Assembly (NCBI GenBank): GCA_963971405.1
Contig: OZ020492.1
Span: 17,142,204 to 17,206,203 of the forward strand
Length of the DNA: 64,000 nt
DNA from: Psococerastis gibbosa
Taxonomy: Eukaryota; Arthropoda; Insecta; Psocodea; Psocidae
Direction of reading: 5' to 3'
Shown here: positions 1 to 62,875 of the stretch, piece after piece
Position numbering within the stretch: the first letter of the stretch is position 1
Layout: every line of letters starts with the position of its first letter
Notes under the pieces: generated by a model
What the model was told of the DNA's origin: nothing
Database searches by the model: none
Seen by the model: only the letters and a program-made list of their open reading frames with translations
Program-made: the position numbers and the translations under genes

Positions 1-1345
1 GTGCAAAACTCAGCAAGTTGAGTTTTGGTGCCGTCCTTTTCTCATGCAGCAGTCCAGTTCAGGTCTTGCCTTTAAGCTCACGCGTTCACCTTTACATATC
101 TTTATTTATTTATTGTTTCGTTCTTCCTGCCAATCACCTCATCCTACCACACTGTGGCGGCTCCGACTACTTCGCAAGTGTACTTCAGCACCGGTACCGG
201 TAAGCGTCACCTACACGTCGCAAGGTAAGCCACAGTGCTCCTGAACTCCCTTCTAGCGCCCAGTCGCGTCTAGTTCCAAGGTCAAAGGTCAAAAATTCAG
301 TTTTTTTCCCCATTTATTGCAAATATCTCGTTTCTTATGGGCTTTATGATATTTGTAGTAATTATAAAAATTGTAGACTAGACAATTAAATTTGCCACAC
401 TGTTTCAACAATTTTTTTTATATCTTGAACAATTGTCGAGATAGAGGACACAGCGCGCGCAATGTTTATCTATTATGAGTATCATTCGAGGTCAACCGTA
501 GTCCCGATTAAGAACCTCGGTATAAGTTGTCGAGTCGGACACTCACTAATCGCTACATCAAAGAATATCGGCAATCGGGTACATAAAACGAACAATAACG
601 TTTTAGGGAGCATATTAGAATCCTGCCTAAAATAATTGAACTCACCGAAAAACCGAACAACCCTCCTTTTTGAAATAATCAGCAACAGTTCTCTCTTCTT
701 GACGAGGATACATACTGTCATATTGCTTCCTCTGAGGTGACTTCAAGTGTTTTAGCAGCCCCTTGGTATTTCCTCCCGCGGTTTTAATTGAGATAGTACG
801 CTTTGCTTTAAGGCATTAAGCCACACATTTAGATCGGAAAAAGCAGCAAATTTGATCCTGGACTCTTTGTGAATATCAGCTTCGCCTTCTGTACCTTTGA
901 AGGTCCAGCTTCAACCAAATCACGCTCACTCATCTTCAATAACAAACCGATCAGACAAACTGAACAATTAAGTATGAACCCACCGGCAACCGCTCGAAAC
1001 AAAGATCGCTATTAAATGAAAAGCTTCGCTTCTTCGTTGTAGCCTGAAGGTAATATAGGCGTATCCTCTGCGACTCAACAGTATTGCCCGTGCCAATCAA
1101 TTTAGTTATTAGACTCTAGTAGAAAAAAGTATCATTCATACCCTGAGCATATGATGGAGTACGTCTTTTTATAGTTAAATAATCTAGTCAGCACATTGGT
1201 GTAAATGCAGAATGCTGACGAAGGGGAATACGTACATTGCTATGCTGGGTCATTAGTATCCATGGACTCATATAACTGCATACCCAAACACACACAAATA
1301 GGCCTATCTAACACAAGGAATGGAAGATAAACAAGATTATCCCCT
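1..1345. other. Unannotated non-coding stretch
   Basis: No repeat family shared with the rest of the window and no convincing reading frame. The frames that are open are short and overlap one another on both strands. Confidence 0.5.
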
Positions 1346-1350
1346 AGCTT

Positions 1351-2683
1351 AGGCGCCCATTCCACCGACCGGCTAGGGCTATTTACAAAAACGGTGACGT
1401 GGTAGCAGACATCAAACATTTTAATAGATTTCTATACAAAGAAAAATTCTATTTTCCGTCAATGTCATTTGCATTCTGCAATGCGAGGTTGGTGGAAACG
1501 CCACCTAAGTCTTGAATGTCTGCTACCACGTCACCCCTAGCATTGCAGAATGCAAATGAAATATTTGTTTTCCTCTATGCCATAGTTAAAATTGATCAAT
1601 GATCATAGAGTAAAATCACAAACAAACTAAAATTAAAAAATGGCTTCATGGGATATGTCAATTACAAACATTTTAATAGATATCTATAAAAAGAAAAACA
1701 AACATTTCCGTCAATGTCATTTGCATTCTGCAATGCGAGATCGATGGAAACCCCGCCTAAGTCTTGAATGATTGCTACCACGTCACCGTTTTTGCTTTCC
1801 AATTTATACGTAGTATAAGGAAAGCTTTGTGATGGTCGAAATTTTCGATTCCGAGATTTCAACGGATTTACACGTTTTGAGGTCCCAGGAACCCAAAAAA
1901 GTGGTTTATACAAAATGTCTGTCTGTCGGTCGGTCTGTCGGTCTGTCTGTTCGTCGATTTCCGGGCAAACTACTCGGTGGATTTGAGTGAAATTCGGCAT
2001 GTAGGTTCACAAAAATCATACCTCGGGAACTTTTTTTTTTTTGGGCTAACTCTATTTGGGGGGGTTTTATTTTCAAAAAACTCCAAAAAAACGTCTAAAA
2101 AAATTATTTCTCAAAAACGGCTCCAACGATTTCTTTTAAATTCTCGTAGATTGTAGTCGTTATTAATGTTGACAAAATGCGGGGGGTCGCTTGCCCCTTG
2201 ATAGTTTGCTTCTGGGGGTAAAAAAATAAAAATAATTAAATTTTAATGAAAAAATGACTAAAAAATGCGAAACCTTTCTATCGATGATTTCTACCTTCAA
2301 GCATGTTTTAGGTGTTAAATTGAGTAACGAAACCGGATAGGTTGCTTTCCCAAAAAAATATTTGGTTTTGCCCAAAAAATTATTTTTTGAAAAAAATGAT
2401 AGAAAATTCGCGCTCAAATGCATTGCATGCCCTGCCATTATTGCTGTGTGGTAATTAATGTGTTTGTTTGACCTATCGAGAATTAACCTCACTTCCAGTG
2501 ACGTCAGGGGGACAACCGCCCCCCCCCCCCCGAGATATCGGAAATTTAACCATAGGAAAAATATTTGCCATAAAATTACTAATTTTCTCTATCTAATAAT
2601 TTTGATAAATTGGAAAGCATGTTCGAGTGAACTCGGACCGGTTCTTGTAAATAGCCCTAGCCGGTCGGTTGAATGGGCACCTA
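1351..2683 (+). mobile_element. MITE-H copy 1, rearranged and split by HINE-E
   Basis: The left end carries GGCGCCCATTCCA followed by GACCGGCTAGGGCTATTT and GTGACGTGGTAGCAGACAT. The inverse of this appears at the right end, 2644-2683. Between them lie further inverted pieces of the same element at 1470-1540 and 1725-1793, so this copy has been internally duplicated or inverted. A HINE-E copy at 1794-2644 sits inside the right terminal arm. The flanks look like TTA and TAA, which fits a PIF/Harbinger (Tourist-like) TWA target. No transposase is present. Confidence 0.7.
1794..2644 (+). mobile_element. HINE-E copy 1 (Helentron-type non-autonomous element)
   Basis: Reference copy of the family. 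The 5' end starts with GCTTTCCAATTTAT. Its reverse complement ATAAATTGGAAAGC lies at 2605-2618, short of the 3' end, so it is a sub-terminal inverted repeat. A TCTG-rich microsatellite runs at about 1918-1950. A short 3' hairpin (CGAGT/ACTCG) at 2624-2635 is followed by CGGACCGGTTC and then TT. There is no coding capacity. Sub-terminal inverted repeats, a microsatellite core, a 3' hairpin and a TT insertion site are the described hallmarks of Helentron-associated elements such as Drosophila INE-1. Assignment is by structure only, because no Rep/helicase partner is in the window. Confidence 0.65.
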
Positions 2684-2740
2684 AAACAGAAATGCTGAAA
2701 CGGGCGTTGGAAAACAACAAACGAAGGACCATTTTAACCC
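2678..2740 (+). repeat. Rep-D (D2 type) 3' fragment
   Basis: AGAAATGCTGAAA and the following GTTGGAAAACAACAA match the 3' part of the Rep-D copies ending near 12325 and 36290. Confidence 0.4.
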
Positions 2741-3240
2741 GCAGTGTTAAATTATCATGGTACCTTGGCTAGGACTGTGAGACAAATTTATCCGCAGAAA
2801 TGTCTATTTATGATTGTAACCTTTCATCAACGGTTATTTCAACGAGAGATATCAAAAACGTTTACCAATGCAAAGGTAAAAGAGCCTCTTTCATCCCTTT
2901 GGCCCTTAGAAGTGACAACGTCGTATCTATTTATGACATAACTTTCATCAAAGATCCGAAAGAGCAAAAACAGAGCCTTTCATTACCCTTTTGATCTGAA
3001 GCATTGGCGATGGCGCGTTGAAAAGGGACGAGAATATTAAAATAGTACGGAAAAACAGTTCAACTAACTTACATCTACCGAAAGACTGCAAAAAACTTCT
3101 AACAACCAAAAAATGCTTTTCACTCATTTCAGTGTAAATTTATACGCAGTATAACTTGAAGGATCCGCAAGAGTAAAAACTTTTATCAATATATAACATA
3201 ACAAATCAAAATCAAATTATATATAATTTTATTATAATAT
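2741..3240. other. Unannotated AT-rich stretch
   Basis: Contains two imperfect direct repeats (TATTTATGA with CATCAA about 100 bp apart, near 2807 and 2928). No gene or shared repeat recognised. Confidence 0.4.
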
Positions 3241-3337
3241 AGAATATAAGGGCTTCGATGGCATTGTGGTATTGTGGCATTGTACAGAAGTATATTAATT
3301 ATGTTATAATATATAATACGATAAAATTATTAGGTAT

Positions 3338-3480
3338 AGGCATAGTGGTAGCTTGTTCGTATTGTGCGAGTTTCTACACATCATGCGATCGGTGACCTGT
3401 CGTAACTCAACACAGGCGACTGAAGAGGTTATTCGGATACATTCATTGAATTGCTTGTAAGTAAATAATCTTTTTTAAAT
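3338..3480 (+). repeat. SINE-B copy 1
   Basis: Begins with a tRNA A-box-like GGCATAGTGGTAGC, continues through ATGCGATCGGTGACCTGTCG and ends GAGGTTATTCGGATACATTC then TTTTTTAAAT. Five other copies in the window share this order. A second fragment of the head (CTTCGATGGCATTGTGGT) lies about 85 bp upstream at 3254. Pol III origin is inferred from the A box only, since the B box is degenerate. Confidence 0.65.
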
Positions 3481-3754
3481 ATGTATATAAAATAATAATT
3501 ATAAAATAAAATAATACATTTATTTTTATTTTATAAAATAATAAATTTATTTTTATTTTATTTTATATATTTGCTGTATGTATATTGGGTAATGTTTCAC
3601 TTTCATGAAATCACGGGAGAAACTCTTACATGACTATATAGGATACATAGGATACTCATACAGTTTTTATTTCTCATTGACCCTCCAGCTGCGGCTACTT
3701 CGCGTTGGAATGTGAAAGGAAAAAATAAAAATAAAAACTACTTGAAAAATTAAT

Positions 3755-4100
3755 TTAATGCAAAACCATTCTATCGATGATTTCTACCTTCAGGCATGTT
3801 TTAGGTGTTAAAATGAGTAACGAAACCGGACAGGTTGCTTTCCCAAAAAGTATTTGGTTTTGGGCGAAAAAAAGGTCTTTGAAAAAATGATAGAAACTTC
3901 ACGCTCAAATGCATTGCCTGCCCTGCCATTATTACTGTGTGGTTACCTCACCTCCAGTGGCCCCAGGTGGACACCCCCCCCCCTTTCCCGAGATATCCGA
4001 AATTTAACCATAGGAAAATTATTTGCCATGAAATTACTAATTTTCTCTATCTACTAATTGATGAAATGGAGAGCATGTTCGAGTAAACTCGGACCGGTTC
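3755..4100 (+). mobile_element. HINE-E copy 2, 3' half only
   Basis: Starts inside the family at CTATCGATGATTTCTACC and runs to the CGGACCGGTTC end, including the C-tract near 3975 and a degraded sub-terminal repeat. The 5' half is missing. Confidence 0.75.
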
Positions 4101-4104
4101 TTTT

Positions 4105-4947
4105 GAAATATGTTACGATTTTTTTCCTTTGGACGTCCGGCCCCAAACAACTATTTTTGGTCCGACCCGCCGGGTAAATGCCCGTCTACCCGCTGGCCTA
4201 GTCCCCAACTGCATGCAACGTTAACAAAGGAAAAATTGTAAACATACGGTATTGTGGTCCACTATTGGATAGGTATTAAAATTGAATATATAACACTATT
4301 ATATATTCAATGGTATTATATATTCACAAGCAGCGCATGGATGAGAAGTTCAAGGAGAAGATGAGGGGAGGGAAGATGGAGAAGAATATATAAAGCTGAA
4401 AAAAAACTACCAGAAACTATATAAATAAACAGCTGTTTTGACAGTGTCTAAATCGGTTTTATTTACAAAGTAAAAAAACAAAGAACGTGAAAAAATACAA
4501 AACATTCATAAATTCAATGGCAAAATTTTGAAGTTGTCACATCTTAGACAAAAAGGGGGGACAAGATATATTTATTATTCTCCGAACTTTTCAAGCAAAT
4601 CAATGTAAATTTATTCGAAGTAATAACAATTTTATGATAAAACTTTGATCAAAAAACCGAAAATACTAAAACTTTTATCAATAAAAAGCTCAAACAGTTT
4701 TTATTTTTCATTAACCCCTTAGCAGTGGCAACTTTGGGTTGGAAGGAGACAATGGCTGGTACAAAGGTGGAGAACGGTGGAAACCAAGAAATTAGCCATA
4801 GAGGGGATGTTGCTCTGAAGGTAGGGGTTGGATGCTGGGACTCAGGGAGCGCTGGATCGGCAGATCGGCAGGATCGGCTGCGTTGGCTTCAGTATTGGGG
4901 ATGACAGCGAAGGGGTAGTACCGCGGGCGTCCGCGAAATACTTCGCC
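4105..4947. other. Unannotated stretch, GC-richer towards the right
   Basis: A palindromic AT patch built on TATATTCAA and TTGAATATA lies at 4280-4330. From 4800 the base composition becomes GC-richer, leading into the possible exon at 4948. An initiator-like TTCAGTA sits at 4888. Confidence 0.35.
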
Positions 4948-5002
4948 ATGCGGTACCGCACCGTTAAACTTCTCTTTACTATCTACCTCCTCATTTCTGA
5001 CG
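4948..5002 (+). CDS. Possible first coding exon with signal-peptide-like start
   Basis: From the ATG the frame reads MRYRTVKLLFTIYLLISD and then breaks at G|GTAAGATT, a good 5' splice-site match, leaving a phase-1 junction. The product has two basic residues, a hydrophobic stretch (LLFTIYLLI) and a polar end, as expected of a secretory signal peptide. Phase-1 introns after signal peptides are common in secreted animal proteins. The local sequence is GC-richer than its neighbours, and the upstream TTCAGTA resembles an arthropod initiator. No downstream exon could be joined with confidence, and short hydrophobic frames arise by chance in AT-rich DNA. The protein family is not recognised. Confidence 0.2.
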
Positions 5003-5073
5003 GTAAGATTTAACTTATTTCTTTTAGTTTTAATTTAAAATGTATATCTCTGTAAAATTTTATAACTTAAGAC

Positions 5074-5545
5074 TCTCCGGGAAGGAAATGTGTATCTTTC
5101 AGTGGTGAAGTTATGAGGCGAGGAGAGAACGTGCCTTTCAACCTGCGGTGTGAGCTGGACCACAACAAAACTAGCCAAAAAATTGTTGTTTTCTCTGAAA
5201 AAATTCTTTAAAAAAATGACAAAAAAATTTGTACCTGGAAGTGGCGAGAGAACTTGGTGAGCATAACTTGCCAAAATCTCATTAAAAATGTATTGACAAA
5301 AATATTTAAAATTGAAATAATTATAAAATATGTAGAGGCGATATTTACGACATGATAACTTTGTTAGACTAGCTTCTCAACGTCATTGCAAAAGGTGAAA
5401 TAGGTGCAAAAGGTGAGATATTTACCTCATTTCTTATAATTTGAATAAAACATATTTTTCTCTTCTGAGTTGTTTTAAAAATAATTGCAGGAAATATATT
5501 TGTATCTGGAAGTGGCGAAGGTAGGAACCGCGAGAACTTAATTAT
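5074..5545 (+). repeat. Three degenerate copies of a short GGAAGTGGCGAAG motif
   Basis: Versions of GTATCTGGAAGTGGCGAAG occur near 5088, 5230 and 5501, each followed within about 15 bp by a GAGAAC-like word. The last copy is bounded by TTGCAG at 5485-5490 and GTAGGA at 5521, so it could be read as a 30-nt micro-exon. The first copy has no open continuation. Most simply this is a decayed local duplication. Confidence 0.4.
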
Positions 5546-9802: not shown

Positions 9803-10062
9803 GTCAGGACATGTAGCGTGTCAGGACATGTAGCGTGTCAGGACATGTAGCGTAGTGGTACGGACTGTGACTTTCATTCGAAAGGTTGTTGGTTCGAGTC
9901 CCACACTAGCTACATTTTCTGGCCGTGCTTCGGAGGGCATGTAAAGCAGGCGGTCCCGGGTCACCATAGTTGAGTGTAAGAGAGGGCTTTATAGCCCTAA
10001 CTCCGCTAGGTTGGCTTAGTAATAGAAACTATAAAAAGTCCTTATTTATTATTTATTTATTT
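9803..10062 (+). repeat. SINE-A, full length, with triplicated 5' end
   Basis: The first 17 bp, GTCAGGACATGTAGCGT, occur three times in tandem (9803, 9820, 9837) before the body. The B box GGTTCGAGTCC is intact at about 9891, and the TTATTTATTATTTATTTATT tail is present. ATTG occurs at both Rep-C junctions and may be all that remains of a target duplication. Confidence 0.9.
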
Positions 10063-10065
10063 TAT

Positions 10066-10105
10066 TGAGCAGTTGGTAGTGGGCAAGGGCCAATGGGCCA
10101 CAATT
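10066..10105 (+). repeat. Rep-C, right half
   Basis: GGGCAAGGGCCAATGGGCCAC is the Rep-C 3' portion displaced by the SINE-A insertion just upstream. Confidence 0.6.
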
Positions 10106-10149
10106 AGTTCCATTCCGTCAGAACATTATATTTATTTTTTATTTATTAA

Positions 10150-10341
10150 TTATTATTATTATTTTTTTTTTTTTTAAAAAAAAGATTAATCACATACAAA
10201 CAATTTAATGAATGTATCCGATTGACCTTTTGAATCGCCTCTGTAGGTTATTACCCGTGATGAGTACGACACGTCTCCGATTGCATGGAGTGTAAAGACT
10301 CGCACAAGTGCAAGCACGTTACCACCTGGCCATCGAAGTCG
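10150..10341 (-). repeat. SINE-B, antisense, full length
   Basis: On the minus strand: CTTCGATGGCCAGGTGGTA, GTGCGAGTCTTTACAC, GGAGACGTGTCG, CAGAGGCGATTC, ATACATTCATTAAATTG and a T-rich 3' end. Best preserved in its 3' region. Confidence 0.75.
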
Positions 10342-10349
10342 ATATATTA

Positions 10350-10960
10350 AGTATGCATTATTATGTGATCGGGAGAGGGGGGGGGGGGGTTGCAGCCTTA
10401 CGACCCTAATTCACGTGCTATTCAAAATCCATGAACAAAGAACGATCTCATCTGAGTTCCTAAGTTGTTTGTATTATCACAAAGAAGGTACTTCTAAAGG
10501 TACATAGTACGGTAAGCAGAAATAATGGGAAAGAAACTTTATATGGAGTTACGGGAAGCGCCGAAGAATAATGGTACGATATATGTGAGGCGAATCTAAT
10601 TTATCAATGTCTCTATTATATGCTACAGAATCTTTACTTTTTCTCCGATTGGGAGCAAGATTCTTATTATAGTATTAATTGGCACAGCTGAATTAGTGGA
10701 AATGTTGTAACTTTAATAACTCTAGGACTCTGCTGCAGGTGGCCCGTAGGCCAATGGGTACTCCCTACTCCATTTCTTTCCAATGATTGAGTATGTTCAT
10801 TAACAAATTTATAAAATCTGTATAAAGTCTTATAACGTCTGCATATCACTTATCGGTGTCGCGCTTGCGCATGGCCACTCTTCCTCCAGCCATTTCCCGA
10901 CATATTTAAATCCGTTACAATGTGGACTATTGAATGAAAGGATCGAGGATAAACACAAAA
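10350..10960. other. Unannotated stretch with a G tract at 10376
   Basis: A run of 13 or so G lies near 10376-10389. No shared repeat or gene seen. Confidence 0.35.
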
Positions 10961-10964
10961 GACG

Positions 10965-11217
10965 GACTCTCACTTCGGACTTTCACCCGAAAGGTTGTTG
11001 GTTCGAGTCCTACACTTCCTACATTTTCTGACTATGCTTCGGAGGGCATGTAAAGCGGGCGGGCTCCAGTAGTCCAACCCGTAGCCATGGCGAGATTCGC
11101 TGAAGCAGTGGGCCTTGGTCCCGGGTTTTTCTAGTTGATTGTAAGAGAGGGCTTTATAGCCCTAACTCCGCGAGGTTGGCTTAGTAATAGAACAAAAAGT
11201 CCTTATTTATTTATTAA
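10965..11217 (+). repeat. SINE-A, 5' truncated
   Basis: Starts within the head (ACTTTCACCCGAAAGGTTG), keeps the B box, and carries about 45 bp extra between the GGCGGGC and GGTCCCGGG body words (CTCCAGTAGTCCAACC onward). Tail TTATTTATTTATT. Confidence 0.8.
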
Positions 11218-13587: not shown

Positions 13588-14307
13588 GAACCGGTCCGAG
13601 TTTACTCGAACATGCTTTCCAATTTATCAAGTAGCAGCTAGAGAAAATGAGTAACTTCATGGTAAATATTTTTCCTATAGTTAAATTTCGGGCATCTCGG
13701 GGGGGGGGGGGGGGGGTTGTCCACCTGACGTCACTGGAGGTTGGAGGTGAGGTAAATTCTATATAGGTCAGACCAACACATTAACACACAGCAATAATGG
13801 CAGAGCACGCAATGCATTTGAGCGTGAATTTTCTATTATTTTTTCAAAAAAACATTTTTTTGCACAAAACCAACTAGTTTTTTGGGAAGGCAACCTGTCC
13901 GGTGTCGTTACTCAGAAGCAAACTGTCAAGGGGCAAGCTACCCCCCGCATTTTGTCAACATTAATAACGATTACAATATATGTGAATTTAAAAGAAATCG
14001 TTGGAGCCGTTTTCGTGAAATAATTTTGTTTGACGTTTTTTTTTGGAGTTTTTTGACAATAAAACCAAAAAAAAAAATGGTCCCGAGGTATGATTTTTGT
14101 GAACCTACATGCCGAATTTTATCATAATCGACCGAGTAGTTTGCCCGGAAATCGATGAACAGACAGACAGAGCGACCGACAGACATTTCGTAAAAACCAC
14201 TTTTTTGGGTTCCTGGTACCTCAAAACGTGTAAATCCGTTGAAATCTCGGAATCGAAAATTTCGACCATCACAAAGCTTACCTTATACTTCGTATAAATT
14301 GGAAAGC
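13588..14307 (-). mobile_element. HINE-E copy 3
   Basis: On the minus strand it runs from GCTTTCCAATTTATACGA at 14307 to the GACCGGTTC end at 13588. Both sub-terminal repeats, the 3' hairpin (CCGAGTTTACTCGA at about 13596) and a 19-nt G tract at 13698 are present. It is flanked by TT at its 5' side and followed by TT at its 3' side. Confidence 0.85.
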
Positions 14308-14505: not shown

Positions 14506-14790
14506 GCTTTCCTATTTATACGTTAGCATAAGGAAAGCTTTGTGATGGTCGAAATTTTCGATTTGCACGTTTTGACGAACCCAAAAAATATATTTTTTAA
14601 TGAAATGCCTGTCAGTCTGGGGGTTTTACAACTATTTAAAAAAAATGTCAAAAAAAAATTATTTCTCAAAAATAGCTCTAATGATTTTCCACTAATTCAC
14701 ATATATTGTAGTCGTTATTGATGTAAACAAAACCCAATAGGCAGGCGAGGGGGGATCCAAATTAAGGGGGGGGGGGGTAGTGCGGTACCC
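14506..14790 (+). mobile_element. HINE-E copy 4, variant subfamily, 3' truncated
   Basis: Starts GCTTTCCTATTTATACG rather than GCTTTCCAATTTATACG. The A-to-T change is mirrored in 3' ends of the same subfamily elsewhere (ATAAATAGGAAAGC). Internal deletions remove most of the microsatellite and 3' half. Confidence 0.7.
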
Positions 14791-18605: not shown

Positions 18606-18624
18606 GCATTTAAATTCATTTTGG

Positions 18625-19066
18625 GCGTTTTCCCCTCACAGACAAAAAAAAAACTATACTTTAATGTTTTCAGAAACTATTACTTTTAAACTCACATATA
18701 TTGTAGTAATTATTAATGTAGACAGTCCCGACTAGGTTACAGGCTACGCGCCATTTAAAAAAAAGGCCTCACGCTTGCATAAATTTCAAGATTATCCCCT
18801 TGTTTGCGCCTTGCTGGGCCCACGTTTTCTTCGGTGGATGGCGGCCATCATGGGAATTTAATCAAGTGTGACGTCATTTTAAAAATGGCGCGTATTTTAA
18901 AATATGTGATTTTTTATATTTTTATAAATAAACTATAAAATCTTTGGAAATTAGTGAAAATTTGAAAGTTTCCTATTTTTTAAAAGTAGAATCCATTTCA
19001 ACAAAAAAGAAACTCAGTTTGACTTGGAAAGTCTACTAATAAATAGGAAAGCATGTACCGGTTTTT
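18625..19066 (+). mobile_element. HINE-E variant, degraded
   Basis: Shares ACTCACATATATTGTAGTA with the family core near 18690 and ends AATAAATAGGAAAGC, ATGTACCGG at 19039-19062. This is the variant sub-terminal repeat. The middle is diverged and lacks the C tract. Confidence 0.45.
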
Positions 19067-22570: not shown

Positions 22571-23540
22571 TAAACGTATTTATTCGCAAATTGCCATCAT
22601 CAGAGAAGTGATAACCTCATTGGATTTGAGGATAGAGCGCGTGTCAACTAGTCTTTAAAATGAAGAGTAGTTGCTCCATTTTTGCATAGTTGATGATATT
22701 GTTTATTTTGTTTTTGTATTTTATTGCATTATGCATTATATTATAAGTATTTTTCTAATATAAATATTTAAAAAAATAATAATATTGGTAAAGAAAGAAT
22801 GCCCGACTCAATTAGCCGAAATAATTAATAAATAATTAATTCCTGCTTATACAGCCACAAAGATGGGAAAAATTCAGAGAATAAACGTTTTTGCAGAACA
22901 TTTACATTTTCACTGAAATATTATTAGGTTCAAAAAACGTACTGGAAAAGTTGGAGAGGTAGTGTGCATTAAACTGATTTTACAGAATAGTAGTAAATCC
23001 GTCGGGTGGGTTTGCCATTGCTTTTAGCCCATTTTTTTTTTTTTTTTAAATCTTCGTTCAGTCCAACAAAATCTCACGGGCCGTCAATTCCAAATGCGCA
23101 CAAAAAAGGAAAGGGCAGAATGTATGTATTACATGTAATGTGAAGCAAGGAATGAAAATAGAAGAGGGAACAGAAGAAAATTGAAAATTTAAAATAAAGC
23201 CACAGATTTAGGAAATTTGGTATGCATACATTTCAACAGCACCTTCGAATAAAAATGTAGAAAGAATTTGAATTTGATCTGTTGAAAAATAGCGGTGTTG
23301 TTGGGAAAGAATAAGCAATATCAATTTCCCGAAATCTATTTTTCCACTTCGAGGGCGTCCCATGAGAGCATAAGTAGAAAATCATAGAAATTTTGATGGA
23401 ACATATGTTCATGTTACCATCGAAAATATTGTTTTTTGCAAAAAAGAGACATTTACTAATCGGCCACCATAGAATTAGACCTGTTGCTGCAAAGCTTATA
23501 TATATTGCCGGCGATATTGCATTCACGGGTATAAATAAGG
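22571..23540. other. Unannotated AT-rich stretch
   Basis: T run at 23029-23047. No gene or shared repeat seen. Confidence 0.35.
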
Positions 23541-23545
23541 GACAT

Positions 23546-23662
23546 GAAGAGCAGTGGTACGGAATCTGACTTTCACCCGAAAGGTTGTCAGTTCGAGTCC
23601 CATCCTTCTTACATTTTCAGACCATGCTTCGTAGGGCAAAAGTCATTATTTATTGATTTATT
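23546..23662 (+). repeat. SINE-A with large internal deletion
   Basis: Head with A box (GAGCAGTGGTACGG), B box region (AGTTCGAGTCC) and CATGCTTCGTAGGGCA, then directly AAAGTCATTATTTATTGATT. About 110 bp of the body is missing. Confidence 0.8.
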
Positions 23663-23663
23663 A

Positions 23664-23884
23664 TAAATTCATAAATAAATAAATAAATAATTACTTTTTG
23701 TTCTATTAGTAATCCAACCTAGCGGAGTCAGGCCTATAAAGTCCTGTCTTATACACAACCTCAAGGCTCGGGACCGCCTGCTTGACTTGCTATCCGAAGC
23801 ATGACGAGAAAACGCAGCAAATGTGGGATTCGAAACCTTTCGGGTGAAAGTCAGAGTGCGTACCACTACTCCACATGTCCTGAC
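23664..23884 (-). repeat. SINE-A, antisense, tail-to-tail with the previous copy
   Basis: AAATAAATAAATAAATAATT tail abuts the tail of the upstream copy. The body is complete but diverged, and the B-box region has lost a few bases. Confidence 0.85.
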
Positions 23885-23889
23885 TGAAT

Positions 23890-24283
23890 GTTTTTTTCAG
23901 AATTGCCATATCGCGCTGGGAATCGTTGAATTGATATCAGCAGGTCAAGAAAACGGTTAATTTACCACTGGTAATTTTTGGGGGAAGTCCCACGGTCGGT
24001 TGAAGAGTCTCGGTAAAGAAATTCTATAAAAATTTTAAATAAAAATAAACTAATTTAAGAAAAGAAGATGAAAGTTGAAGCCTAGTGTAATTGAAAAAAA
24101 TTGTAGGGTAGTGGGCATTGCTTTGTCTTGCGTAAGGGCCCCCAAAAATTTATTACGCCACTGCACACAATATTTCACCATTTCCCATATGATCAATATT
24201 TCATCTTCAATTTTATTTTCTATACCTGTAAGGTTTTCTCCTGCCGGTAGTGCAAAGAGCTGAAAGTTTTAAACTTCCCCTTC

Positions 24284-24314
<31 letters not shown>

Positions 24315-24855
24315 GGAGTAAAGGAAGAACTAATACTGTTCAACTACAGACTGTAAAGTTACTCGTAACAGCCATAAATTATCATTTGGGGGAGACAATC
24401 AAAGCCTTTCCATAAAAGAAAAACTGGAAGGAAGCGAATGTAGAGACTTACAAGGTACTTATCAACTTAGCTTGGCAACTTAATTTTCCTAGCTAGACTT
24501 GAAAGTTTTTCTTCCACAAAGTTCTGTGAAGGAACAGAAGAGCAAAACAGTAAGTTATTCCTCTATAGTATAAGTTCATAGTCAGTCTTTATTTAACAGT
24601 GTTTTTACTTCTTATTAGTTAAACCTTTTACTACTCAAATTAAAAAAAAAAAAAAGTTAGTCACGATTCCTCCTATAGTATATATTAACACTTTTGCATG
24701 ACGTTAGTTTCTTTGATGCTCTATAAATTCCCGTTTTCCATCAGTTGTTCATCTTTCACCATTTTTCAATTTTAAACTATCGTTGATATGTACAGTCAGG
24801 TCCAAGAGAGGACCATAGGCGGCGCACGCCCTAATCTCGCTGTACCTGTATTATT
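23890..24855. other. Unannotated stretch
   Basis: GTAATTTTTGGGGG at 23970 and an inverse-like CCCCAAAAATTTATTACGCC at 24140 may be the ends of a decayed hAT-type element, but no matching 8-bp flanks were found. No gene seen. Confidence 0.3.
24285..24314. repeat. (TA)n microsatellite
   Basis: About 14 TA units. Confidence 0.95.
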
Positions 24856-24859
24856 ACTT

Positions 24860-25034
24860 TAGTGGTGCGGACTCAGACTTTCAACCGAATAGTTGTCGGC
24901 TTGAGTCTCACAATTGTTACAGCATTGTAAAGCAGGCGGGCCCGGGTCTTTCTAGTTGAGTGTAAAAGAGGGCTTTATAGTCCTAACTCCGCTAGGTTGG
25001 CTTAGTAATAGAAATAGAAGTCATTATTTATTGA
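24860..25034 (+). repeat. SINE-A, internally deleted
   Basis: A box (TAGTGGTGCGGAC), degraded B box (GGCTTGAGTC), loss of the CATGCTTCGGAGGG segment, then GTAAAGCAGGCGG to the TTATTTATTGA tail. Confidence 0.8.
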
Positions 25035-25039
25035 TGAAA

Positions 25040-25823: not shown

Positions 25824-26682
25824 GCTTTCCAATTTATGCGTAGTATAAGGAAAGCTTTGTGATGGTCGAAATTTTCGATTCCGAGATTTCAACGGATTTA
25901 CACGTTTTCAGGTCCCAGAAACACAAAAAAGTGGTTTTTACGAAATGTCTGTATGTCGCTCTGTCTGTCTGTCTGACTGACTGTCTGTAGTACTGTCTGT
26001 TCATCGATTTCCGGGCAAACTACTCGGTCGATTTTGATGAAATTTGGCATGTAGGTTCACAAAAATCATACCTCGGGACAATTTTTTTATATTGGGCTAA
26101 CTCAATTTGGGGGGTTTTATTCTTAAAAAACTCCAAAAAAACGTCTAAAAAAATTATTTCTCAAAAACGGCTCCAACGATTTCTTTTAAATTCACATAAT
26201 TATATTGTAGTCGTTATTAATGTTAATAAAATGTGGGGGTCGCTTGCCCCTTGATAGTTTGCTTCTGGGGGTAAAAAATAAAAATAACCCATTTTTCAAA
26301 ACAAAAAATATGACTAAAAAGTAATTTTTCTGCGGATACTTTCTATCGATGATTTCTACCTTCAGGCAGTTTTAGGTGTTAAATTGAGTAACGAAACCGG
26401 ACAGGTTGCTTTCCCAAGAAACTATTTGGTTTTGTGAAAAAAAAAATATTTTGAAAAAATTCACTCTCAAATGCATTGCATGCCCTGCCATAATTATTGT
26501 GCGGTAATGTGTTGGTCTGACCTATCTATTATTTACCTCACCTCCATTGACGTCAGGTGGACCCCCCCCCCCAGGTATCCGGAATTTAACCATAGGAAAA
26601 TTATTTACCATAAAATTACTCATTTTCTCAATCTACTAATTGTTAAATTGGAAAGCATGTTCGAGTAAACTCGGACCGGTTG
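25824..26682 (+). mobile_element. HINE-E copy 5, near full length
   Basis: GCTTTCCAATTTATGCG start, TCTG microsatellite at 25946-26000, core ACTACTCGGTCGATTTTGAT, C tract at about 26562, hairpin CGAGTAAACTCG and GGACCGGTTG end. Left flank ...TTTT, right flank TTTTAG. Confidence 0.85.
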
Positions 26683-32306: not shown

Positions 32307-33161
32307 GCTTTCCAATTTATACGTAGTACAAGGAAAGCTTTGTGATGGTCGAAATTTTCGATTCCGAGATTTCAACGGATTTACACGTTTTCATGTCCCA
32401 GGAACCCAAAAAGTGGTTTTTACGAAATGTCTGTATGTCGCTCTGTCTGTCTGTCTGACTGTCTGTAATTCTGTCTGTTCATCGATTTCAGGGCAAACTA
32501 CTCGGTCGATTTTGATGAAATTCGGCATGTAGGTTAACAAAAATCATACCTCGGGAAGATTTTTTTTTATTTTGGGCCAATTCAATTTCGGGGGGTTTTA
32601 TTCTCAAAAAACTCCAAAGTCTAAAAAAATTATTTCTCAAGAACGACTCCAACGATTTCTTTTAAATTCACATATATTGTGGTCGTTATTAATGTTGACA
32701 AAATGCGGGGGGTCGCATGCCCCTTGATAGTTTGCTTCTGGGGGTAAAAAAATGAAAGTAACTAAAAACGACTAAAAAATATTTTTTCTGCGAAACCTTT
32801 CTATCGATGATTTCTACCTTAAGGCATGTTTTAGGTGTTAAGTTGAGTAACGAAACCGGACAGGTTGCTTTCCCAAAAATCTATTTGGTTTTGCACAAAA
32901 AATTATTTTTTGAAAAAATGATAGAAAATTCGCGCTCAAATGCATTGTGTGCCCTGCCATTATTGCTGTGGTAATTAATGTGTTGACTGACCTATCAAAA
33001 ATTTATTTCACTTCCTGTGACGTTAGGTAGACGACCCCCCCCCCCCCCGAGATTTCGGAAATGTAACCACTGGAAAATTATTTACCATGAAATTACTCAT
33101 ATTCTCTATCTACTAATGTTGATAAATTGGAAAGCATGTTCGAGTAAACTCGGACCGGTTC
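32307..33161 (+). mobile_element. HINE-E copy 6, near full length
   Basis: Both sub-terminal repeats, TCTG microsatellite at 32430-32480, C tract at 33035-33049, hairpin and GGACCGGTTC end. The left flank ...AAAAGTCATTATT resembles a SINE tail. The right flank starts TTAATTTATT. Confidence 0.9.
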
Positions 33162-33164
33162 TTA

Positions 33165-33565
33165 ATTTATTGCTTTCCTATTCATGGGGGGGGGGGGAAG
33201 CACGGGTTAATCCATTGGCGTTCCACCCACCACCAATTATTGTAATATACTGTTGACCTATTGTAAAATACAATTCACGGGTTCACTCATTCAAGCATGT
33301 TTCGCCTATTGCATACCTATATACACAAATTAATAGCAATTAATCTCTGTTGAGAAACAATGACGATTTTTATATTTAATACGCTATTATTGTTATAATT
33401 CGATTTTCGTATATGGGGATTATATAGACTAATTTACAAGTGTTATTCTGACATAAGTTATTCTCCTACGTTGGTGCTAGGTCCGCAGGAGAGACTTAGT
33501 TCAATATAGGCTGGAAGAACGCAATTTAATTGGTTCCAGCATTTTTTCATACCTTCCTTACAAGC
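33165..33565. other. Unannotated stretch
   Basis: ATTGCTTTCCTATTCATG at 33170 may be the first bases of a further HINE-E variant, followed by a G tract. Nothing else recognised. Confidence 0.3.
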
Positions 33566-38169: not shown

Positions 38170-38611
38170 GCTTTCCAATTCATACGTAGTGTAATAAGGA
38201 AAGCTTTGGGGCGGTCCAAATTTTCGATTCCGAGATTTCAACGGAATTACACGATTTGAGGTCCCAGGAACCAAAAAAAGTGGTTTTTACGAAATGTCTG
38301 CCTGTCTGTCTGTCTGGCTGTCTGTCTGTCGCTCTGTCTGCCTGTTCATCGGTTTCCGGGCAAACTACTCGGTCGATTATGATAAAATTCAGTATGTAGG
38401 TTAACAAAAATCATACCTTGGGATAATTTTTTTATTTGGGGCTAACTCAATTTGGTGGGGGTTTTATTCCCAAAAAACTCCAAAAAACGTCTAAAAAAAT
38501 TATTTCCCCAAAACGGCTCCAATGATTTCTTTTAAATGCACATATATTGTAGTTGTTATTAATGTTGATAAAATGCGGGGGGTCGCTTGCCCCTTGATAG
38601 TTTGCTTCTGG

Positions 38612-38650
<39 letters not shown>

Positions 38651-39052
38651 AAATTTTAATGAAAAATGACTAAAAAAATAATTTTTCTGCGAAACCTTTC
38701 TATCGATTATTTCAACCTTCAGGTATGTTTTAGGTGTTAAATTGAATAACGAAATCGGACAGGTTGCTTTCTCAGAAAAGTATTTGGTTTTGTACAAAAA
38801 AATGTTTTTCTGAAAAAATTCCCACTCCAACGCATTGCGTGCCCTGCCAGTATTACTGTGTGTTAATGTGTTGGTCTGACCTATCTAGAATTTACCTCAC
38901 CTCCAGTGATGTCAGGTGGACGGACAGCCCCTCCCCGAGATATCGGAAATTTAACCATAGTATAATTTATTATTTACCATGAAATTACCATTTTCTCTAT
39001 CTACTAATTTTGATAAATTGGAAAACATATTCGAGTAGACTCGGACCGGTTC
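38170..39052 (+). mobile_element. HINE-E copy 7, near full length
   Basis: GCTTTCCAATTCATACG start, clear TCTG microsatellite at 38299-38345, a 34-nt A run at 38616, no long C tract (GACAGCCCCTCCCC instead), hairpin CGAGTAGACTCG, GGACCGGTTC end. The right flank continues as Rep-C antisense. Confidence 0.9.
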
Positions 39053-43137: not shown

Positions 43138-43256
43138 CCAGGACGTGCAGAGTAGAGGTACGGACTGTGACTTTCACCCGAGAGGTTGTTAGTTCGAGCC
43201 GCACACTGGCTACATTTTCTGGTCATGCTTCGGAGGGCATGTAAAATAGGCAGATC
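43138..43256 (+). repeat. SINE-A, 3' truncated
   Basis: CCAGGACGTGCAGAGTAGAG, TTCACCCGAGAGGTTGTTAG, TTCGAGCCGCACACTGG and ATGCTTCGGAGGGCATGTAA. No tail. Confidence 0.8.
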
Positions 43257-43423
43257 CATTATGACTTGAAAATTGATATTATAATATGATTTGGAAGTAC
43301 GCGTTCAGAACGACTTGATTTATCCAACGCCCGAACGTGGTAGTTCAACCATTCGTCGCCGAGCTTCCCAATAGCGGTTCACCAAGTCATCGTTCGGGTA
43401 GGTGAGAACGACCACGGCCAACC

Positions 43424-43486
43424 ATCCCGGATTCTACTGATTCGTCACGTAACTCCGGTCGCGGAAGCCTTTGCAATTATATCCCT
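43424..43486 (+). repeat. Fragment shared with the inverted repeat at 27766
   Basis: TCCCGGATTCTACTGATTCG then ACTCCGGTCGCGGAAGCCTT and TTGCAATTATA, matching 27893-27955. Confidence 0.6.
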
Positions 43487-43494
43487 CTCTTACC

Positions 43495-43718
43495 GTCAGG
43501 ACATGTAGCGTAGTGGTACGGACTCTGACTTTCACCCGAAAGGTTGTTGGTTCGAGTCCCACACTACCTAAATTTTTTGGCCATGCTTCGGAGGGCATGT
43601 AAAGCAGGCGGTCCCGGGCCATCCTAGTTGAGTGTAAGAGAGGGCTTTATAGTCCTAACTCCGCTAGTTTGGCTTAGTATTAGAAACAATAGAAAGTCCT
43701 TATTTATTTATTTAGTTG
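43495..43718 (+). repeat. SINE-A, full length, consensus-like
   Basis: GTCAGGACATGTAGCGTAGT, TTCACCCGAAAGGTTGTTGG, TTCGAGTCC, CATGCTTCGGAGGGCATGTA, GTGTAAGAGAGGGCTTTATA and a TTATTTATTTATTTA tail. The best sense-strand reference copy of the family here. Confidence 0.95.
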
Positions 43719-43724
43719 GAACTG

Positions 43725-43815
43725 CACGGGACCACCTGCTAAACATAGCCTCTGAAGCAGGCCACCGCTAGGGTGGTCTCATGTATATTAAAGCCATTAT
43801 TTATTTATTTAAGTG
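43725..43815 (+). repeat. SINE-A-related 3' variant
   Basis: ACGGGACCACCTGCTAAACA followed by GCTAGGGTGGTCTCATGTA and a CATTATTTATTTATTTA tail. The same 3' variant flanks MITE-K at 16.5 kb. Confidence 0.5.
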
Positions 43816-44304
43816 CGGGCTCGAGCAAAGGAACTTCCGAGGGCGAGTACGAGTCCTTCAAAATTATAAACGCAACTCAGAGAAATGCCAAAATATATTG
43901 ACATTAAACTCTTTGCACTTTCAAAATTGAGGAAGATGAAAATTTAACCAGGGGAAGCAGTCTTGTTAAAAATGACAAAAAGCATTCTAAGCTCTACTGG
44001 GCATGATGGTTCTAGAAGATTTCCCAGTGGAGTTCAAGTCCCATTGGTTTTTTTTTGGAGCTAAAAATGAGGTTGAGAACAGTCCTCAGAATGGGAAGAT
44101 TACAAAAGGGGGAAGGAGACAGAAAAGGGTATGGGGCAGGGAGAAGAGGATCGTACATGATGTGGGGCATATTACAGGTCTTTGTTTGCGTTAATCAAAA
44201 ATAATATTGGCAAGTACACAGCATTTTTCTCGGGTTTCCCTTTATTCACCGGTTTTCTATTTACTGAGTACGATCTGCACGATTACACCTCAGTTCTTGA
44301 CTAA

Positions 44305-44555
44305 GACCCGTTACACACGGGCGATTCTCCCAGTCGCGGTTTGCCGTCGTTTTTCCATTGTAGGGATTAGGGCTTGGTGAATGGTCGTTGCAAAACCAAA
44401 GAGTCTAATTCTGAAGATTTCTTGGCCTGGCTTGCCTAGGGGAAACCCTTGTACTTTTGTGCGGTCGGCTTCACGCCGAAATCGACAAGAAAGACGTCGG
44501 CTAATCGCGACTGCGAAAAGCGTCCGTTTGTTTGAATGCAATAGGCTTAACAGAA
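44305..44555. mobile_element. Possible degraded terminal-inverted-repeat element
   Basis: CACACGGGCGATTCTCCCAG with CGCGGTTTGCCGTCG at 44313 is imperfectly mirrored by the inverse of CGACGTCGGCTAATCGCG-like sequence at 44490-44530. The interior is open on both strands but unrecognised. Confidence 0.35.
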
Positions 44556-44582
44556 AATTTGATTGAAATGCCATTTTGTAGT

Positions 44583-44797
44583 CGGGACATGTATAAAGTA
44601 GTGTTAGGGACTCTGACTACCACCCGAAAGGTTGTTTGTTCGAGTCTTGCACTTCCTACGTTTTCTGGCCATGCTTCGGAGGGAATGTAAAGTAGGCGGT
44701 CCCAGGCCTTCCTAGTGTTGAGTGTAAGAGAGGGCTATATAGCCCTAACTCTGCTAGGTTAGCTTAGTAATAGAACAAAATGTCCTTATTTATTTAT
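44583..44797 (+). repeat. SINE-A, full length, diverged head
   Basis: GGACATGTATAAAGTAGTGT, CACCCGAAAGGTTG, TTCGAGTCTTGCACTTCC, CATGCTTCGGAGGGAATGTA, TTATTTATTTATAAA tail. Confidence 0.85.
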
Positions 44798-44799
44798 AA

Positions 44800-47934: not shown

Positions 47935-48357
47935 AGATACATGGCAGAACTGAAGCTTTTGTATTGCAGGAAACATTTTATTATTCATTTATTATACGTT
48001 CATTCATCTTTTGAACTTTCAACTGTTTGAATAAGCTGCATAGCTGGAGAGTTACCAGATTTCAGAAAGCTCAATTCCTGACACCTGAACGAAAGTGTCA
48101 TTGTAGATAGTGTAAAGTTCCTTCTGAAGAGGCATATTATAAACGAATCCAGTGTAAATTTATGCATTTCACTGTTGAATACTGCTGTGCTAGAATTAAA
48201 ATAAATAAAAATGCAATATTATATTTTATAATGTCATAAGTTCCTGCCAAATTTTGAATTAAAGTTAAAGCGCGAAAAATTTTTTCATTTCAGTATTTGT
48301 CATTTCAGTCTTTATTTCACATTTTTAACGTTACGAAATCCATTTTTATTTATTTAT
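47935..48357. other. Unannotated AT-rich stretch
   Basis: No recognised feature. TTTATTTATTTATAG directly precedes the LINE homology and resembles a 3' splice site by chance or design. Confidence 0.35.
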
Positions 48358-51905: not shown

Positions 51906-52052
51906 CCAGCGGCGTCGGTCCTGTGAGCCTTCGCGCACTTGGCTCGAAAGAATTCATTGGTAAACCACTTAGAGTCACCACTTACAGTCACCATGTACTA
52001 TTCTACTATTCCATGTACTTATCTATTTCTACTTATATCTGTGCTAATCGAT

Positions 52053-52091
52053 AAATAGGACAGCATGTACGGGCTTACTAGTACCGGTTCT
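52053..52091 (+). mobile_element. HINE-E variant 3' end
   Basis: ATAAATAGGACAGC then ATGTACGGGCTTACTAGTAC and CGGTTC, followed by TT. It carries the variant sub-terminal repeat and a 3' palindrome different from the main subfamily. Confidence 0.6.
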
Positions 52092-52127
52092 TTAAAACTA
52101 ATTTTCAAAGAAGGGTTAATAGTGCCC

Positions 52128-53067: not shown

Positions 53068-53986
53068 AAGTGGCCCATTAGTCTCTTGTCCAATGCCAAC
53101 GACCCCATGGATTTAGGACATTATTGCTTTCCAATTTATACGTAGCCTTGTGATGGTCGAAATTGTCGATTCCGAGATTTCAACGGATTTACACGTTTTG
53201 AGGTCCCAGGAACCTAAAAAGTGTTTTTTACGAAATGTCTGTCGGTCGCTCTGTCTGTGTGTCTGTCTGTATGTCTGTCTGTTCATCGATTTCCGGGCCA
53301 ACTACTCGGCCAATGATGATGAAATTTGGCATGTAGGTTCACAAAAATCATTCCTCGACACCATTTTTGTTTTATTTTGGGCTAACTCAATTTGGGGGGG
53401 TTTTATTCTCAAAAAACTAAAAAAAAACGCCTAAAAAAATTATTTCTCAAAAACGGCACCAACGATTTCTTTTAAATTCACATATATTGTAGTCGTTATT
53501 AATGTTAATAAAATGTGGGGGGTCGCTTGCCCCTTGATAGTTTGCTTCTGGGGGTAAAAAAATAAAAATAACTAAATTTTAATGAAAAATGACTAAAAAA
53601 TAATTTTTCTGCGAAACCTTTCTATCGATGATTTCTACCTTCAGCATGTTTTAGGTGTTAAATTGAGTAACGAAACCGGACAGGTCCCCCCCCCCTCCCC
53701 CCGAGATGTCCGAAATTTAACTATAGGAAAATTATTTGCCATGAAAGTACTCATTTCCTCTATCTACTAATTGATAAATTGGAAATCATGTTCGAGTAAA
53801 CTCGGACCGGTTCTTTATATTGGTTTCCGCATGCAATTTTGACCATTGACAAACTGTAAGCGTTCTCGATGTCAACCTACGCCGGCTACAGCGGATAATG
53901 AAAAAGCTGCGACAAACTTACCATTGAGGCAATGTAACAGGCGAAGGCATGACTTAACCAAGTACAGATACGAGCCAGTTTCGACC
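53068..53986 (-). repeat. Rep-C, antisense, split by HINE-E
   Basis: The left part (GCCCATTAGTCTCTTGTCCA to GGATTTAGGACATTATT, ending 53125) and the right part from 53814 (TTTATATTGGTTTCCGCATG to GACTTAACCAAGTACAGA) join exactly into Rep-C order. Confidence 0.85.
53126..53813 (+). mobile_element. HINE-E copy 9, nested in Rep-C
   Basis: GCTTTCCAATTTATACGTAG start (the AAGGAAAGC segment is deleted), TCTG microsatellite at 53251-53281, short C tract at 53686, hairpin and GGACCGGTTC end. An internal deletion removes the region between AACGAAACCGGACAGGT and the C tract. Confidence 0.9.
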
Positions 53987-54560: not shown

Positions 54561-55001
54561 TAGTAGTAGTATGGTTGGACACAGTCCCAGGCCACGGTGT
54601 GGGCCCATAGGACAGGGGACCTCCTGATTATAGTGGATCCCGAACCACTTGGGAAACACAGTGACGTCACACGATTAGTTTGGAGGTGACCAGGACAAGT
54701 CCTACCATGTTTCCCTACCGGCACTGTGCACACTACCAAGTTATCTGCATCTTTGAACCTGCTCTGGTCCGCTGGATTCAACTTGGTAAGGCGGCCGGCT
54801 CTGATCGTACCTATGTATCTTGTATGGCAAGTTGTTATGCACTTGTAGATGTAAGGCTTGGAACATTAAACTCCTCATAAAAGCTGGTAGATTGAAAGTG
54901 GATAAGTTTAAACGCAGAAAACCCGAGAAATACATTTCTTACGAATTTTATAAATCCGCCTACAGTACATAACGCTCAGTAGAAATAATGATCTAAGACT
55001 C
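54561..55001 (-). repeat. Rep-D, D1 subtype, long copy
   Basis: On the minus strand it ends CCAACCATACTACTACTA, a (TAC)n tail, preceded by CCAAGTGGTTCGGGATCC, CCTGGTCACCTCCAAACTAA and GGCCGCCTTACCAAGTTGAA. About 190 bp of further 5' sequence (ACTTATCCACTTTCAATCTA etc.) is shared with the copy at 62876. The reading frame NLVVCTVPVGKHGRTCPGHL stays open in three copies. Confidence 0.8.
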
Positions 55002-58670: not shown

Positions 58671-59634
58671 GACCTTCCGACTTATCAATTAGTATAGGTA
58701 CCGTAATTGTCCCATGGTAAAGAATTGTCCCATTATTAAATATGCTCATAGATTTCCTCAAAATTCGAAGGCACAGGAACGATCGATGAGACAATTGCAT
58801 TGTCTATAGAATGGGCAAACCAATATTGTATTTATTAATTTTATTTATATATTTATTGACCTTATAAGACTGAAAGAACAACAAACACATAAACCTGCCA
58901 TCACAGCGAAGTTCAGGCCACTCAATTATTGCACTCAACTGGGAATACAAGCAATCATAAACATACGTCAGTACAGAGCAGGTGCAAACACTGAGATAAA
59001 AGGAATGGCACACATCACATCTGCATGCCCGTCATCAAGTGAGCTTTTAAACTCGACCTATATAATATAATACTAGTATGGTGTATGCAATCCATTGGAA
59101 CTCAGATTTATCCCTAATATCTTCAAAAATTAATTTTTTCTTCAAAACAAACCTTCCTTGTGAAAGCAACCTATTCTGGTGTTTTACTCTATTTAGAAAC
59201 TAAAACATACCTGAAAGCATAGATAGAAAGGTCGCCCGGAAAAATGATATTTTTAGTCTTGTTTTTTTTTAATGAAAATGGAACCTTTTTATTGTTTGAA
59301 CCAAACTATCAAGGGGAATGCGTGTTTACATTAATAAGTACTACTACATTACTACATTATCTGTTTTATTCCTTTTTATAAGAAAACATATGAGCCGCTT
59401 TGGAGAAAAAACTTTTTTAGTTGTTTTTGAGGGCTTGGGGGGGGGGGGGGGTTATCAAATCGCATCGAGTAGTTTCTCCCCAAAATCGAGTTACAGACAA
59501 TAGACAGACCGACATGCTGCAATTTCGTAAAAAATCGATTTTTGGGTTCCTGGGACCTCAATCCGTTGAAATATAGAAATAGAATATTTTGACCACTACA
59601 AACTTTCCATATACTAACTTATAAATAGGTAAGC
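58671..59634 (-). mobile_element. HINE-E variant copy 10, old
   Basis: On the minus strand it starts GCTTACCTATTTATAAG at 59634, has GGTCCCAGGAACCCAAAAAT, a short TCTGTCTATTGTCTG remnant and TACTCGATGCGATTTGATAA, and ends CGAACTGGTTC at 58671. A G tract lies at 59437. The core from 58800 to 59050 is replaced by unrelated sequence. Confidence 0.65.
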
Positions 59635-62870: not shown

Positions 62871-62875
62871 ACCTA

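Follow-up and report, generated by a model that had tools for sequence, protein, structure and literature searches.

What class of mobile element do six similar sequences of 688-883 bp represent, and what do the inverted repeats near their ends do? These are the questions raised by the window, by which we mean the whole 64-kb stretch of DNA analysed here (C20:17142204-17206203, in a 409-Mb genome of 68 contigs). We find that the sequences very probably belong to a large, old family of Helentron-associated interspersed elements (HINEs) of the DINE-1/INE-1 type, gene-less relics once moved in trans by the Rep/helicase/endonuclease of a Helentron. Directly observed are the anatomy, the insertion at TT, the lack of any duplicated target sequence apart from T's, the copy number, and dispersed near-seamless head-to-tail joints. 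The role of the repeats calls for more graded answers.

The copy at 1794 consists, in order, of a T-tract, GCTTTCCAATTTAT, ACGTAGTATAA, GGAAAGC, a GTCT/GTCG microsatellite, a mostly AT-rich interior of about 650 bp, ATAAATTGGAAAGC, ATG, TTCGAGTGAACTCGGA, CCGGTTC and TT, and carries the following features:

1794..1807, plus strand: 5′ sub-terminal repeat GCTTTCCAATTTAT, terminal here except for T's
1819..1825, plus strand: inner arm GGAAAGC of a nested inverted repeat, which could form a 5′ hairpin with 1794-1800
1916..1951, plus strand: GTCT/GTCG microsatellite (GTCY type)
2605..2618, plus strand: 3′ sub-terminal repeat ATAAATTGGAAAGC, which matches the 5′ repeat perfectly in inverse orientation and lies 26 bp short of the 3′ end
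2624..2635, plus strand: 3′ stem CGAGT..ACTCG
2635..2644, plus strand: 3′ end GGACCGGTTC, then TT

The remaining copies share this plan, with changes. The 5′ repeat reads GCTTTCCAATTCAT in the copy at 38170 and GCTTTCCAATTTAT in the other five complete window copies; its inverse at the 3′ side is perfect in three of the six and one base off at 26643 and 53774, and it is followed in the window copies by the TTCGAGT..ACTCG stem, GGACCGGTTC and TT. All 14 distinct complete copies collected from the genome, which were picked by their ends, have the 14-bp inverted repeats with the 3′ one 26 bp internal. The nested inverted repeat GCTTTCC..GGAAAGC is present in most of 15 aligned copies, being lost at 53126 and altered in several, and the GTCY microsatellite lies in the 5′ half both at window 1916-1951 and in locus L062. 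The longest stop-to-stop frame overlapping 1794-2644 spans 141 aa; judged by frame length, the copies have no coding capacity. Two copies of different subfamilies have doubled 5′ ends 27-28 bp apart (L002:1501-1528 and L005:2815-2843, the latter on the minus strand).

Within the window, the 14-mer occurs 20 times at no more than two mismatches, against 2.4 expected, and the following copies and fragments can be delineated:

1794..2644, plus strand: complete A-type copy, preceded by TTTTT and followed by TT; six empty sites aligned
3722..4100, plus strand: 3′ fragment, A-type
13588..14307, minus strand: complete A-type copy, 720 bp
14506..14732, plus strand: 5′ fragment, second type (GCTTTCCT)
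18613..19064, plus strand: 3′ fragment, second type (ATAAATAGGAAAGC, ATGTACCGG), most likely from another copy than 14506
25824..26682, plus strand: complete A-type copy, the 3′ end reading GGTTG at 26682
32307..33161, plus strand: complete A-type copy, used as query (A4) of the genome search
33172..33185, plus strand: second-type 5′ end (GCTTTCCTATTCAT), 10 bp downstream of the 32307 copy
38170..39052, plus strand: complete A-type copy with one change per repeat, the changes not matching each other
52051..52092, plus strand: second-type 3′ end (ATAAATAGGACAGC, ATGTACGGG...ACCGGTTCTT)
53126..53813, plus strand: complete A-type copy, 688 bp, with four empty sites within the window
59088..59634, minus strand: second-type 5′ fragment (GCTTACCTATTTAT)

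The end at 33172..33185 is followed by a G-run in which no HINE sequence was recognised by eye. A preliminary description of this DNA had listed six copies on one plan, and all six indeed prove complete, with both ends and TT; the TCTG microsatellite that it named is present at 1916-1951 of the 1794 copy, and its CGAGT/ACTCG hairpin sequence is found in the A-type ends. The second-type 3′ repeat that it placed at 52053 is present at 52051 but reads ATAAATAGGACAGC, one base off the quoted sequence.

The preliminary description went further, holding that the two repeats of the second type had changed together and that this was direct evidence for their pairing. No complete second-type element was found in the window. 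The description gave 14506 as a start and 19041 as an end of this type; the piece with the T-type 5′ end at 14506 and the one with the A-type 3′ end at 19052 share an internal segment, corresponding to 282-397 and 273-394 of the 32307 copy, and, because both contain this stretch, are most likely different copies, an internal duplication within one copy being less likely. Thus, a joint change is unshown in the window, whereas the genome at large supports it. Exact 3′ ends with a letter other than T at the variable position number 1,332, and exact 5′ ends with a letter other than A 1,064; among the places listed with their letters, all on contig C1, 100 3′ ends comprise 88 A, 9 G and 3 C, and 100 5′ ends 76 T, 17 C and 7 G. 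The excess of A over C (3′) and of T over G (5′) has a binomial p <1e-14, whereas decay would favour the transitions, 3′ C and 5′ G. When 77 5′ ends and 100 3′ ends of C1 up to 26.7 Mb were paired by coordinate (same strand, no more than 2.5 kb apart), five pairs emerged in the right order and none reversed, with about 0.36 expected by chance; read at their ends in all five cases (and in the interior only for the 98-bp one), four are matching T/A copies and one is a non-matching C/A copy.

Of the four matching pairs, two end in the A-type tail TTCGAGT, and the other two in ATGTACGGGG and ATGGAGAGAG, so T/A repeats are not confined to a single 3′ background. A letter other than T is found at 299 of the 3′ ends that carry the A-type tail (22 A, 3 G and 2 C among the 27 with listed letters), and only 2 of the 22 with letter A have an exact 5′ T end no more than 2.5 kb away (C1, 0-26.7 Mb). 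The data suggest an intermediate with T/A repeats and an A-type tail, and then a switch of both repeats. The 98-bp pair (L063, C1:26507533-26507647) is a second-type HINE whose repeat starts lie 98 bp apart, a near-minimal element. A candidate mismatched copy has its 3′ end, with letter A, at C1:56211; the A-type 14-mer 1,274 bp upstream, at C1:54937, would make it mismatched if it is the 5′ end of that copy. A third subfamily with C/G repeats was considered and rejected: C among the listed 5′ ends (17 of 100) and G among the listed 3′ ends (9 of 100) fit transition decay from T/A, and the sole linked C copy has a 3′ A. Among 15 complete A-type copies, eight have both repeats perfect, and none of the other seven carries a matched change, so the repeats of single copies decay independently.

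The second type is, therefore, real at the subfamily level, and its repeats show one matched difference from the first, A/T versus T/A. This is no direct evidence for pairing, since a single matched change is equally expected if one protein reads both ends. In that case, to which we give an even chance, both repeats changed because each follows the same Rep, and strand pairing is not needed; this explanation accommodates a single matched difference and also predicts that four of the five linked variant copies match, but the evidence does not separate recognition by one Rep from pairing. The argument that such repeats keep a structure while their sequence changes was itself printed in 2008 for Drosophila DINE-1 (PMC2374699).

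Would the repeats pair if given the opportunity? Ends were folded computationally as single DNA strands and compared with shuffled sequence. The 5′ end folds on the nested arm at -8.1 kcal/mol (z -5.15), and that of the second type at -6.2 kcal/mol (z -3.33). When the ends are joined as 3′-TT-5′, the predicted fold is a stem of 15 bp with the 3′ stem and the T joint inside it, at -14.6 kcal/mol (z -4.93). The A-type 3′ end alone forms its stem with an energy no better than that of shuffles (z -0.62), and four second-type 3′ ends alone yield z values of -1.14, +0.53, +0.84 and +0.31; the assignment to HINEs does not hang on this stem. The 5′ and joined-end folds largely restate the inversion of the repeats. 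Since the 5′ repeat can engage in only one of its two pairings at a time, a conformational switch is possible.

The insertion sites bear on how these elements moved. Flanks were read for 14 distinct complete copies (15 rows, two of which are one copy with a doubled 5′ end). TT is present on both sides in all 14, and the five bases on the 5′ side are TTTTT or TTATT in 13. Comparison of the joined flanks with available sequence gave clear paralogous empty sites for 3 of the 14 insertions, two of them scorable: the 53126 insertion has three T's at four empty sites versus five at the filled site, and the 1794 insertion has five (four sites) or four (two sites) T's versus seven. The three empty sites of the L048 insertion all lie inside a long T-run and are, hence, unscorable, and one weak partial match for the 32307 insertion was left out of the count. 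There is no target duplication beyond the T's. The empty-site check proposed at the outset, of TT-TT sites, thus came out as anticipated, with only T's gained. The element may have brought these two or three additional T's with it, or they may be a TT duplication; both fit equally, an ambiguity that Yang and Barbash met in D. yakuba (PMC2374699). Nor do terminal inverted repeats with a fixed-length duplication, one of the contrary outcomes envisaged in the preliminary description, occur here: the 3′ repeat is internal, and a TT duplication is indistinguishable from element-borne T's.

Copies also occur head to tail. The 3′ end GGACCGGTTC followed within 0-12 bases by GCTTTCCWATTTAT gives 56 exact junctions (control, 0), with spacers of 2 (2 cases), 3 (8), 5 (1), 6 (4), 7 (1), 8 (8), 9 (16), 10 (13), 11 (2) and 12 (1) bases; spacers of 13-41 bases add 23 junctions, or 0.79 per length (control, 0). 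Spacers of 2-3 bases, found in 10 of the 56, are in excess (Poisson p 7e-6), and the five of these ten spacers whose letters were read consist of T's. With 2-3 bases there is no room for the TTWTT found before 13 of 14 insertions, and these near-seamless joints look like direct end joining. The ten, which are dispersed, fit rolling-circle joining; end joining is also how PMC5876387 interprets head-to-tail junctions and tandem arrays of Helitrons. Alternatively, they could reflect insertion into the T's after a copy, or the spread of one dimer.

The main peak, at 8-10 bp, accounts for 37 of the 56 junctions (p 6e-31 if the cases are independent). Given that 30 of 35 readable spacers of at least six bases end in TTWTT, this peak looks mostly like nested insertions. 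Two of the five other spacers (8 and 9 bases) terminate in CAT and resemble inverted 3′ ends rather than 5′ ends, and two spacer-10 cases with an identical spacer, 1,443 bp apart, are probably one array; the peak survives both corrections. An AT-rich stretch of about 8 bp that follows insertions (14 copies) may be part of the preference. The pair at 33161/33172 in the window, with a spacer of 10 (33162-33171), is outside the count of 56 because of a mismatch in its 5′ end.

Sites and junctions together weigh on a different class assignment, a MITE-like DNA transposon whose cut-and-paste transposase would bind the inverted repeats and make a 2-bp TT duplication. The 5′ repeat is terminal except for T's, and the two extra T's at filled sites in 8 of 10 scored comparisons (three in the other 2; two insertions, ten empty sites) can be read as that duplication. 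However, the element does not have the inverted repeats at both termini that define TIR elements and MITEs, its 3′ repeat being 26 bp internal in 14 of 14 copies, and ten near-seamless head-to-tail joints are unexpected from cut-and-paste, so we regard this assignment as very improbable. Canonical Helitron ends (5′ TC, 3′ CTRR, insertion between A and T) are likewise not seen, the ends here being GCTTTCC and GGTTC and the sites TT.

For HINEs, transposition might proceed as follows. A Rep would recognise the inverted 14-bp repeats and nick at the T's; one strand would be peeled off, with replication stopping at the 3′ stem; and the ends would be joined as a circle or concatemer, the product of which would insert into a TTWTT tract. 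Least certain is a two-state role of the 5′ repeat, which in the resident element might fold on the nested arm and in the joined circle might form 15 bp with the 3′ repeat, which would bring the 3′ stem and the T joint together in a single structure. That the 5′ repeat is indeed a switch, that its pairing with the 3′ repeat marks the circle as ready to insert, that the matched change between A/T and T/A kept this pairing, and that this machinery also favours inserting a second copy 8-10 bp downstream of an existing one is a composite proposal that we deem unlikely.

HINE ends are very numerous. The exact 14-mer GCTTTCCWATTTAT occurs 14,490 + 14,597 = 29,087 times genome-wide, and the reversed pattern 5 + 2 = 7 times; with no more than two mismatches, the 409-Mb genome contains 25,359 5′ ends with the ACG context (reversed-pattern control, 142) and 37,253 3′ ends with ATG (control, 356). 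Used as a genome-wide query, the 32307 copy drew 9,589 first-look candidates; 40 of them were scored, and apart from the query itself 39 rows span 757-855 bp of it at 85-90% identity on many contigs, while three more rows are short pieces. The notion that the ends, short and AT-rich as they are, represent simple-repeat or satellite debris with chance inversions is refuted by these 39 long copies, by the low pattern controls and by the existence of empty sites.

The 15 aligned complete copies, a non-random sample found by ends, near Rep genes or in the window, differ by 3.4-13.8% from the majority sequence and by a mean of 12.5% from each other; on these figures, the family is not young. Divergence amounts to 1.9% within the 5′ repeat and 1.7% across the last 40 columns, compared with 7.7% inside, but, because the copies were selected by their ends, the low values carry no evidential weight. 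Spread through viruses was entertained and rejected: 11 IMG/VR stretches contain the exact 17-mer, and none has the surrounding HINE sequence by eye.

Other repeats share the window. One dispersed repeat (9841-11215, 23540-25036 and 43141-44798) has a GGTTCGAGTCC motif, which we take to resemble the B box of tRNA genes, and a TTATTTATTTA-type tail, and is presumably a SINE. Another, of 300 bp (54561-54860 and 62874-63173), is 97% identical between its copies and, by that identity, probably younger than the HINE copies. A 250-aa open frame at 48232-48984, with a weak RNase H match below the Pfam cut-off, is probably a remnant of a non-LTR retrotransposon, the class being inferred.

An autonomous partner should be a Rep/helicase element with the same ends, for which the preliminary description had called. 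The PF14214 profile gave 20 Rep matches in the genome and PIF1 15 matches, nine of which fall in nine of the ten 20-kb regions that we read around Rep genes, the Helitron-type ones. In none of these ten Rep-bearing regions is a Rep gene bracketed by HINE ends. Open Rep-helicase frames reach 1,671 aa (three places), 1,619 aa and 1,441 aa. The Rep motif is RGLPH or RGMVH in eight of the ten regions, which puts them on the Helitron side, RGLPH versus RGSPH being the distinction between Helitron and Helentron Reps drawn in PMC4067079; in the C19 region no motif match was obtained, although 5.9 kb of it are 99.3% identical to C2. In the tenth region (C15:2836273-2839677), the translation by eye reads QFQHCGSPHAH, the Helentron form, within a frame of 1,135 aa (L047:1219-4623, minus strand) that contains DUF6570 and Helitron_like_N. 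No match to the Rep-helicase proteins of the other regions, and hence no helicase, was found in the surrounding 20 kb, and the frame is a truncated or possibly host-adopted gene; its protein matches six more loci, short or broken. No HINE piece was found near L024 and L028, two of six weak Rep loci, with 0.5-1.5 kb read on each side.

Three candidate partners were rejected. The Helentron-type Rep at C15:2836273 has two complete HINEs beside the gene and no single pair of ends around it. The Rep-helicase elements on C1, C14 and C15 have a 330-bp stretch with HINE 5′ sequence just before the gene, but, as the similarity among the three copies extends well upstream of it and their 3′ hairpin is a different one, this piece sits inside a larger unit, and their GLPH motif is Helitron-type. 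The C21 elements (L034, L036) carry a reversed HINE remnant of about 105 bp after the Rep-helicase frame, inside a shared unit; its parts are a 5′ end of about 55 bp and a 3′ end that has diverged, BLAST supporting 24 bp and the rest being recognised by eye. As an observation in its own right, the C1, C14 and C15 elements (L037/L038, L039/L040, L041/L042), with an open 1,671-aa Rep-helicase frame, are 99.5-99.96% identical over about 13 kb and, judging from this similarity, were probably active recently. The Helentron partner of the HINEs probably died out here or lies outside the loci read, which bears on the partnership, not on HINE anatomy. The Helentron/INE-1-like assignment made initially is supported by the ends, the nested inverted repeat, the microsatellite, TT insertion and the empty sites, although no end-sharing Helentron was found in the loci read and the 3′ stem, while present, does not fold better than shuffles.

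The family adds a very abundant DINE-1-type group in a 409-Mb genome with little Helentron protein found. With tens of thousands of natural ends, one matched change and dispersed joints, this genome offers data for asking what Helentron sub-terminal repeats do. As far as can be told from the literature on Helentron, HINE and DINE-1 elements, compared by description, it is new as a family; the defining features of HINEs were taken from PMC4067079 and PMC2374699.

Among known systems, Cg_HINE of the oyster Crassostrea gigas (2020; PMC7492417) is alike in its subTIR, complementary IR, GTCY-type microsatellite, 3′ palindrome and several families, and in that no partner could be related to them; unlike the elements here, it has central satellite-like arrays, and its subTIRs are normally 11-12 bp. 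HINE-Mo/Helentron-Mo of the mite Metaseiulus (Thomas et al. 2014; PMC4067079) shares the non-autonomous nature, sub-terminal repeats and 3′ palindrome, as well as a T-rich target with a variable number of T's that is otherwise unchanged. However, the repeats of the mite elements are palindromes at a distance of 38-60 bp from the 3′ end, compared with 26 bp and a separate, DINE-1-like nested inverted repeat here, and the mite families have a known partner, whereas none was found here in the loci read. Another close system is DINE-1/INE-1/DNAREP1 of Drosophila (Yang and Barbash 2008; PMC2374699). The repeat here, GCTTTCC(A/T)ATTTAT, is different, and no central tandem repeat was noticed in the 850-bp copies; DINE-1 copies range from 334 to 5,424 (Table 1, BLAST hits >100 bp), and the end counts here are far higher, although counted differently. 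Yet in DINE-1 the sub-terminal repeats are 13 bp long, and the 5′ one lies 0-2 bp from the end with a partial inverted repeat next to it; the element has a GTCY microsatellite, a stem-loop after the 3′ repeat and insertion at TT, and its subtypes, too, differ in the repeats, types 2 and 3 of D. willistoni by one base.
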